Origin: Planctomycetota bacterium
Lineage (GTDB): Bacteria > Planctomycetota > Phycisphaerae > Phycisphaerales > SM1A02
NCBI GenBank assembly: GCA_022563315.1
Contig: JADFNO010000009.1
Span: 1-44,228 of the forward strand
Length of the DNA stretch: 44,228 nucleotides
Direction: 5' to 3'
Part shown: piece by piece, positions 41,283 through 43,841 of the stretch
Position numbering within the stretch: position 1 is the stretch's first letter
How the letters are laid out: each line of letters opens with the position of its first letter
The notes under the pieces: generated by a model
Told to the model about the DNA's origin: nothing
Databases searched by the model: none
The model's input: only the letters and a program-made list of their open reading frames with translations
Program-made: the position numbers and the translations under genes

Positions 41283-42608
41283 TCACTCCCACCGTGTCGC
41301 GTGCCATCGCTTCTTGCCTCGGCGCAAGAGGATCGTGTGGGCGTGCAGCAGATCGGCCGTGGTCAGACAGTGATCGGCCTCGGCTCGTGTCCCGTTGATA
41401 GCGATCGCGCCGTTGCCGAGGAATTCGCGGGCTTCTCGTTTCGAACCGGCCAGGGATGTCTGCACGAGCACGCCCACCGTCGACACGCCGTCCCCTTCCA
41501 AGAGCGACTTATCGTGCGTTGAATGCGGTACGTCGGCGAAGACTTCTTCCAGCATCGACTCCTCGAGCCCGCGCACGTCGCCGCTGAACAGCGCTTGCGA
41601 AGCGCTCTGGACCTTCTTCAGCTCCTGCTCGCCGTGCAACATCTCGGTCATGTGGGACGCGAGCGCGCGTTGGGCGACACGGTCTTGGGGGGCCTTTTCG
41701 TGCTCCGCTGCCAGCGCTTCGATCCGGTCTCGGCTCAACACCGTGTACCACTTGAGCCACTGCACGACATCTGCATCAGGCAGGTTGATCCAATATTGAT
41801 AGAACGCATACGGGCTGGTGCGCTCCTTCGTGTCGGCGGAAAGCCAAATCGCGCTTCCCTCGGACTTGCTCATCTTCTTCCCATCCGACCGCGTGACCAG
41901 CGGGGCTGTGACGCCAAACACCTGGCCCGGTTCGGCCCCAAACTCCCGCCGTATCAAGTCCATCCCCGCCACGATATTGCCATACTGATCTGAACCCGAC
42001 ATCTGCACCGTACAGTCGAACGCTCGGCGTAAGTGCAGGAAGTCGTAGGCCTGGAGGATCATGTAGCTGAACTCGGTGTAGCTGATGCCTTGCTCGCGCT
42101 GCTCCAACCGCCATTTGATCGACTCCCGCTGGATCATCTCATTGACGGAGAAGTGTTTACCTACATCGCGAAGCACCTCGATAAACCCCAGCTTGTCCAG
42201 CCAATCGACGTTGTTGACCAGGACGGCGGCGTTGGGCAGGGCCGGGTCGAAGTCGAGCAGGCGCTCAAGGATCCGGCGCTGACTGGCTACGTTCGCCTCA
42301 ACTTGTTCTCGTCCAAGCAGTGCGCGTTCATCATCCCGACCGGAGGGATCGCCGATCAACCCGGTGCCGCCGCCCATCAGGGCGATGGGCTTGTGACCGG
42401 CCCGCTGCCAGTGCATCAGCAGCTTGATGGGGATGAGGTTGCCGATGTGCAGGCTGTCGCTGGTCGGATCGAAGCCGACGTAGGCGACACGCCCCGGCGT
42501 GGCCAGGTGCTCGTCAAGCTCCACCCCCGCCGTACGCTGGTGCAACAAACCGCGCCAGGCAAGTTCGTCCAGGAAGCTCATCGTCTGTTCGGTCTTCGTC
42601 CGAGACAT
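41283..42608 (-). CDS. tyrS: Tyrosyl-tRNA synthetase
   Basis: The product has 441 residues and charges tRNA-Tyr. The class I HIGN motif lies in DPTSDSLHIGNL, the Tyr pocket in SYTEFSYMILQAYDF and QMSGSDQYGNIVAGMDL, and the KMSKS loop in RSDGKKMSKSEGSAIW. The C-terminal S4-like domain ends in REAREFLGNGAIAINGTRAEADHCL. The ATG at 42608 is used; an internal ATG nine codons later (MSFLDELAWRGLL) is a good alternative and matches the usual TyrRS N-terminus better. The length is normal for the bacterial type. Confidence 0.95.
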   Translation of the reverse strand: MSRTKTEQTMSFLDELAWRGLLHQRTAGVELDEHLATPGRVAYVGFDPTSDSLHIGNLIPIKLLMHWQRAGHKPIALMGGGTGLIGDPSGRDDERALLGREQVEANVASQRRILERLLDFDPALPNAAVLVNNVDWLDKLGFIEVLRDVGKHFSVNEMIQRESIKWRLEQREQGISYTEFSYMILQAYDFLHLRRAFDCTVQMSGSDQYGNIVAGMDLIRREFGAEPGQVFGVTAPLVTRSDGKKMSKSEGSAIWLSADTKERTSPYAFYQYWINLPDADVVQWLKWYTVLSRDRIEALAAEHEKAPQDRVAQRALASHMTEMLHGEQELKKVQSASQALFSGDVRGLEESMLEEVFADVPHSTHDKSLLEGDGVSTVGVLVQTSLAGSKREAREFLGNGAIAINGTRAEADHCLTTADLLHAHTILLRRGKKRWHATRWE

Positions 42609-42629
42609 CGCAGTTCGGTCGCAACAATG

Positions 42630-43115
42630 TTAGTGATCGTGCGGCGGATAGTAAGCGCTGATCGCCTCGATTGCCTTGCGTAGCGCGACCGCCGCCTTCG
42701 GGTCCACCGTCTGCTTGGCTTTCATCGCCGCCACGATCACTGCATGGTGCGCGGCGAGCTTCTGAAGGTACGCATCGTACGCATCGGTGCCCGGCTCCGC
42801 CGCTTTCACGCGCTGGGCCAAGTAATATTGCGCGATCGTCGTTTGGATTCTCTCGGCGTGCTGCTCCTTGGTCATGACCCAGCGCGTCGCTTGATTGAAG
42901 CTCTGCGCATCTTGCTTGCCCGCCAACGCGTTGATCTGATCCATCGCCTTGGCGATCGTCGTCGTGTCCTCGAGCATGGCCGTGATCCGGGCGTGGTCGT
43001 CGTAGATGCCGCAGGGCACCTGACAGTGCGCCACCGCAACCGGACGAATCGCCGCCAGGAACATCGAGCCGACAGCGCCTGCCACTACCGCGGTCAAAAG
43101 AACTGAGTTTCGCAT
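42630..43115 (-). CDS. sodN: Nickel superoxide dismutase with secretory signal
   Basis: The product has 161 residues. After MRNSVLLTAVVAGAVGSMF comes LAAIRPVAVA and then HCQVPCGIYDDHARI. This is the nickel hook of SodN (H-C-x-x-P-C-G-x-Y), in which His1, Cys2 and Cys6 bind nickel and Tyr9 gates the site. The helical remainder resembles SodN, including RWVMTKEQHAERIQTTIAQYYLAQR. In known SodN a short leader is removed by SodX so that His becomes residue 1. Here a signal peptide ends AVA directly before His30, so a signal peptidase could expose it. GGAG lies about 7 nt before the ATG at 43115, seven codons after an earlier possible start. No sodX is seen in the window. Confidence 0.9.
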   Translation of the reverse strand: MRNSVLLTAVVAGAVGSMFLAAIRPVAVAHCQVPCGIYDDHARITAMLEDTTTIAKAMDQINALAGKQDAQSFNQATRWVMTKEQHAERIQTTIAQYYLAQRVKAAEPGTDAYDAYLQKLAAHHAVIVAAMKAKQTVDPKAAVALRKAIEAISAYYPPHDH

Positions 43116-43205
43116 GATTGATCTCCGATTCAAACTTCCGTCTCATAAAGCCGGCCCACGACCACCGCGAGCGCCGTCCCACCAGAATACCGCGAATTCC
43201 CTCGA

Positions 43206-43841
43206 TCAGCCCGGCGCATTTGCCGGCCGCCCCCACTGGGCTACCTCAGCCTTGATTTTGCGCCGCGAGAACCAGATGAGCATGAAGATCGGCAGCGCCC
43301 ACCCCCAAATCAAACCGATGACGAGGCCCACTGCACCCATCGCCTGCATAAGTGCGGGCAGGAATCCAGGCATGTTCCCGGCCATGTTCGGATCCTCCGC
43401 CATGGCTTGAAACTGAGCCTGTTGAACAATGTAACTCAATACGCTGTTACCAACGACCAGTACCATCTTGAGACCTGCCCAGGTCAGGCAAGTACTGCGG
43501 CCCCATGCGCGGCGCCGCAGCAGGCCGATCCCTCCGATCAGCAAAACGATCGCCAAGACCATCGTGAGCGCCCCAGAGATGATCAATGCGGGTTTAAGGC
43601 CGTCCAGTGCGCTCGTCATCTCCGCAGCCTCGCCTTGCGGCACGAGCGACATGAATTGGTCAAGGAACAGCGACGAGACCAGGCCGAAACAACCCCCTAA
43701 AACCGCCAGCGAACCTAAGATCGTCGCGATGACGCCGATCACCATCGGCCAAGACGACGGCTTCGGTGGGATTGCCCCGGCGTCCGTCGGCGGCGTCATG
43801 GGTGTTGGCGGCGGCATCGGGGGTCCAGTGGTCGTCATCAT
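43206..43841 (-). CDS. Four-helix membrane protein with proline-rich N-terminus
   Basis: The product has 211 residues. A Pro/Thr-rich cytoplasmic start (PPMPPPTPMTPP) precedes about four membrane helices: IGVIATILGSLAVLGGCFGLV, LIISGALTMVLAIVLLIGGIG, a middle one near LKMVLVVGNSVLSY and a last one in LIWGWALPIFMLIWF. It ends FSRRKIKAEVAQWGRP. The final helix and tail closely match the next gene, so the two are paralogues. GGGAG precedes the ATG. No known function is recognised. Confidence 0.65.
   Translation of the reverse strand: MMTTTGPPMPPPTPMTPPTDAGAIPPKPSSWPMVIGVIATILGSLAVLGGCFGLVSSLFLDQFMSLVPQGEAAEMTSALDGLKPALIISGALTMVLAIVLLIGGIGLLRRRAWGRSTCLTWAGLKMVLVVGNSVLSYIVQQAQFQAMAEDPNMAGNMPGFLPALMQAMGAVGLVIGLIWGWALPIFMLIWFSRRKIKAEVAQWGRPANAPG

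Follow-up and report, generated by a model that had tools for sequence, protein, structure and literature searches.

A nickel superoxide dismutase of a Planctomycetota bacterium, predicted to be exported and to be matured by signal peptidase and not by SodX

Nickel superoxide dismutase (NiSOD) binds nickel through the amine of His1, as established for the Streptomyces enzyme, and is usually described as SodX-dependent. The window analysed here, a stretch of 44,228 nucleotides from a Planctomycetota bacterium, carries a NiSOD gene whose product has a hydrophobic leader in front of this histidine. The locus raises the question of how His1 is freed. The first-pass annotation proposed that signal peptidase takes the place of SodX, with export and maturation in one step.

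The sodN gene is located at 42630..43115 on the (-) strand and encodes a precursor of 161 amino acids. The start codon is the ATG at 43115; a Shine-Dalgarno sequence, GGAG (43123..43126, (-)), is located 7 nt 5' of it and is conserved in two close relatives, L062 and L063. The leader, MRNSVLLTAVVAGAVGSMFLAAIRPVAVA (43029..43115, (-)), consists of 29 mainly hydrophobic residues and is followed directly by HCQVPCGIYDD, which confirms that AVA immediately precedes HCQVPCGIY. It has the features of a signal peptidase I substrate: a basic start (MRN), a hydrophobic core and the junction AVA/H. The cut is predicted between Ala29 and His30 from the -3/-1 rule, hydrophobicity and conservation, the junction being kept as AVA/H in L062 (mature part 95% identical to the window protein) and as AYA/H in L063. 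A Tat route via an upstream TTG start (MNRRSIMR...) was rejected, as L063 does not conserve this start, whose Shine-Dalgarno spacing is also poor. The gene order membrane protein, sodN, tyrS (window 41283-43841, (-)) is common to the window and L063; only 21 nt separate the end of sodN from the start of tyrS in the window, and the two may be co-transcribed.

The protein matches Pfam Sod_Ni (PF09055) with 121.1 bits (E 5.7e-35; curated cut-off 25). The score against the NCBIfam sodN model TIGR02753, which describes the SodX-dependent subfamily, is 39.3 bits, below the equivalog cut-off of 90. The nickel hook, HCQVPCGIY (43002..43028, (-)), has the pattern H-C-x-x-P-C-G-x-Y, and alignment with the Streptomyces enzyme places His1, Cys2 and Cys6 as the expected ligands. 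H1, C2, P5, C6, G7 and Y9 are common to the Streptomyces enzyme and all aligned proteins of the two NiSOD classes described below (A and B). Hook residue 3 is Gln in the window protein, Glu or Gln across class B and Asp in class A; a His occupies the position of Arg47 of the Streptomyces enzyme. Sequence similarity to solved NiSODs is weak (best PDB match E 0.17). The AlphaFold2 model of the mature chain, encoded together with the stop codon by 42630..43028 (-), has a pLDDT of 92, with low confidence at the first hook residues. Searching with this model in Foldseek places solved NiSODs at ranks 1-16 in the PDB, and VIA-align gives them Z scores of 13.6-14.0, compared with 11.4 for unrelated helical bundles. 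The modelled protein is thus a four-helix bundle of the NiSOD type. The C-terminus reads PPHDH.

A search for SodX (TIGR02754) through the whole source genome, the assembly of which is 96% complete, returned nothing at E ≤ 10, and none was found near sodN, as the first-pass annotation had noted for the neighbourhood; the genome search proposed there thus turned out in its favour. One signal peptidase I is present, with its Ser and Lys motifs. Of two S24-type proteins, one is a LexA-like repressor and the other a helix-turn-helix repressor, judged by sequence. The genome also encodes a single Fe/Mn-type SOD, which lacks a signal peptide, and a CuZn-SOD was not found in the 96%-complete assembly; the nickel enzyme is therefore the only SOD found in the genome with an export signal.

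We consider it likely that the window gene encodes a Sec-exported, extracytoplasmic NiSOD that is cut by signal peptidase I between Ala29 and His30 and does not need SodX. The pre-protein would be made with a Sec-type signal peptide and cut during export. This single cut would yield an extracytoplasmic enzyme with a free N-terminal His, able to bind nickel together with Cys2 and Cys6; as one cut would free His1 outside the cytoplasm, SodX would be dispensable. Since nickel would not be fully ligated before the cut, loading would have to follow it, outside the cytoplasm. Possible oxidation of Cys2 and Cys6 in that location speaks against the scheme. In this organism the protein would be the extracytoplasmic SOD, alongside the Fe/Mn-type enzyme.

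The proposal that signal peptidase replaces SodX gains support from a survey of 392 genomes spread evenly over Planctomycetota. Sod_Ni is present in 55 of them, and two classes can be told apart among the readable genes. In class A, with 14 genes, the hook reads HCD and the leader is short and of low hydrophobicity; in class B, with 43 genes, among them the window gene, the hook reads HCE or HCQ and the leader is a hydrophobic signal peptide. Thirteen of the 14 class A genes adjoin a SodX-like gene, the fourteenth being cut off by a contig end; of the 43 class B genes, none does (13/13 readable versus 0/43, p 5e-13, with related genomes not independent). With named genomes added, the class B count is 0/119. 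All nine SodX matches above the curated cut-off are beside class A genes. Weaker TIGR02754 matches in class B genomes fall below the cut-off, mostly in longer frames resembling general signal peptidases. A signal-peptide leader and an adjacent SodX are mutually exclusive in the survey. Both classes occur together in three genomes, G100 (L012/L034), G169 (L008/L044) and G191 (L009/L035), with SodX beside the class A gene in each. G393 (L145 and L095) also holds both. In these four genomes, where one enzyme has SodX alongside and the other a signal peptide, use of NiSOD in two compartments could be tested naturally.

The AxA/His junction does not distinguish the classes. All 14 class A leaders end in [AV]xA/H, so SodX-linked enzymes have it too, and the junction was discarded as evidence in itself. 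A comparison of planctomycete SodN leaders, suggested in the first-pass annotation, thus upholds the exclusion of adjacent SodX by signal-peptide leaders but not AxA/His as a mark of them. The classes are separated by the hydrophobic core (median best 12-residue hydropathy 2.46 in class B versus 0.25 in class A), by hook residue 3 and by the lack of SodX. Within class B, 111 of 119 distinct leaders obey the -3/-1 rule at the His junction, compared with 10-39 at any of nine neighbouring offsets, so the junction is far above chance.

Some class B genes are exceptions. The f37 clade, five genes (L046, L049, L054, L056 and L057; support 95), has F, R, L or W before the His, and L050, L029 and L105 likewise break the rule. 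In a clade of three genes, L108, L117 and L055, the last from the family of the window organism, a stretch of about 25 residues separates a normal-looking signal peptide from the final Ala/Ser before His. This spacer resembles a propeptide. Given the residues that precede His in f37, signal peptidase could not produce His1 there and another protease is implied; judged from their leaders, both lineages probably require a further cut. The window leader belongs to the simple type: the one-step scheme suits it, with its AVA/H junction and hydrophobic core, and does not extend to these relatives.

The second protease required in some class B members could act more widely. Signal peptidase would then make only the first cut, and an unlinked aminopeptidase or pro-peptidase would trim to His1 throughout class B. 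Such a step would have to exist in f37 and in the clade with the spacer, but 105 of the 119 leaders, the window's included, fit the -3/-1 rule within reach of the hydrophobic core, so it is unneeded in those, and no protease gene recurs among the class B neighbours. We regard this explanation as unlikely. Equally, a SodX-like protease might be present in the genome and mature the window enzyme as in class A. The assembly is about 96% complete, and class A leaders share the AxA/His junction; that SodX was missed is possible though unlikely because of the class-wide pattern. The search at E ≤ 10 was empty, and the S24-family proteins proved to be repressors by sequence. In the phylum sample SodX adjoins no class B gene out of 43, every match over the cut-off sits beside class A, and class A leaders lack the hydrophobic core. 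Maturation of the window enzyme by a missed SodX is very improbable, the least probable of the alternatives weighed here.

Doubt may also be directed at the activity. The exported protein could bind nickel or another metal via the hook, its main role being metal binding or transfer and not superoxide dismutation. Class B sequences stand far from the solved enzymes and score below the NCBIfam cut-off, they deviate at hook residue 3 and at the position of Arg47, and at least four His are found in the last 20 residues in 22 of 118 proteins. Against this, the six hook residues and the NiSOD bundle are kept, and CuZn-SOD is rarer with class B (3/43) than in genomes without NiSOD (70/337; p 0.04, kinship ignored). 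CuZn-SOD accompanies class A in 5/14. The lower frequency with class B fits a role shared by class B NiSOD and CuZn-SOD. We rate a metal-binding role as improbable, slightly more so than general trimming by a second protease, and retain the reading of the window protein as an exported, signal peptidase-matured NiSOD.

Class B is not peculiar to the source organism or to Planctomycetota; by sequence pattern, it appears to be spread over about eleven bacterial phyla. Eighty relatives were obtained from named genomes, assigned to eleven phyla by record titles and mostly metagenome assemblies; as this set was fetched with the class B pattern, it is uninformative on the A:B ratio. Eleven of the named genomes were searched whole. 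In ten, the sole Sod_Ni gene belongs to class B and no SodX match exceeds the cut-off. The remaining genome, that of Alteromonas sp., holds, besides a class B gene, a separate one of class A, whose leader MSHSIVKALDSLFGFQTASA stands directly before HCDIPC and which is adjoined by a SodX-like protein of 59 bits, just below the cut-off. In a tree of the mature domains, a single long branch with support 100 separates class A from class B; with 138 columns only, the inner branching is unsure.

The window protein thus shares with SodX-dependent NiSODs (Streptomyces SodN; TIGR02753) the hook, the four-helix bundle and AxA before His1. It differs in residue 3 (Gln/Glu, not Asp), in the His aligned with Arg47, in its hydrophobic signal peptide, in the lack of an adjacent SodX and in its place in a separate deep clade. 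A second, exported clade of NiSOD, predicted from these sequences, is well supported, with the window gene as an ordinary member. On balance we favour a broader division of NiSODs into two deep clades: one matured by SodX and with non-exported leaders, the other exported, found in about eleven phyla, mostly matured by signal peptidase and loaded with nickel outside without dedicated helpers, in the niche of CuZn-SOD.

In the open literature covered by the search, no statement of the split between SodX and signal peptide, or of one-step maturation, was found. Dupont et al. 2008 reportedly examined the N-termini of NiSODs and may have anticipated part of the finding. Cyanobacterial NiSOD has been treated as cytoplasmic, and sodN without sodX was read as possible non-use (PMC8346466). 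In a 2025 study (PMC12537917), the signal peptide of a planctomycete Sod_Ni, that of Roseiconus lacunae (WP_230780104.1), which ends in SASA directly before His, served as search bait; the passages concerned do not discuss SodX or maturation. Signal-peptide NiSODs had thus already been noted in passing. In exported His1 metalloproteins such as LPMOs, CopC and DUF4198 (PMC12537917), removal of the signal peptide likewise exposes a metal-binding N-terminal His; these are other families with other metal sites, alike in maturation but not relatives.

Should signal peptidase indeed mature class B, a missing SodX would be no argument against function in such organisms. Exported nickel SODs would then be present in many bacteria, and the insertion of nickel outside the cytoplasm could be tested in ordinary hosts.

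No partner gene (nickel chaperone, protease or transporter) was found among the class B neighbours. Neighbour clusters at these loci are mostly frame shadows of sodN or follow taxonomy. ABC-type ATPases occur at seven class B loci and were rejected as partners, their positions and strands being varied. C-terminal histidines are commoner in class B, and some of the tails could, by their composition, hold metal. His-rich tails are seen in L052, L101, L041 and L031, with as many as 8 His among the last 20 residues. In one further locus (L060:45-1466, (-)), a class B NiSOD continues into an additional C-terminal region of about 310 residues.
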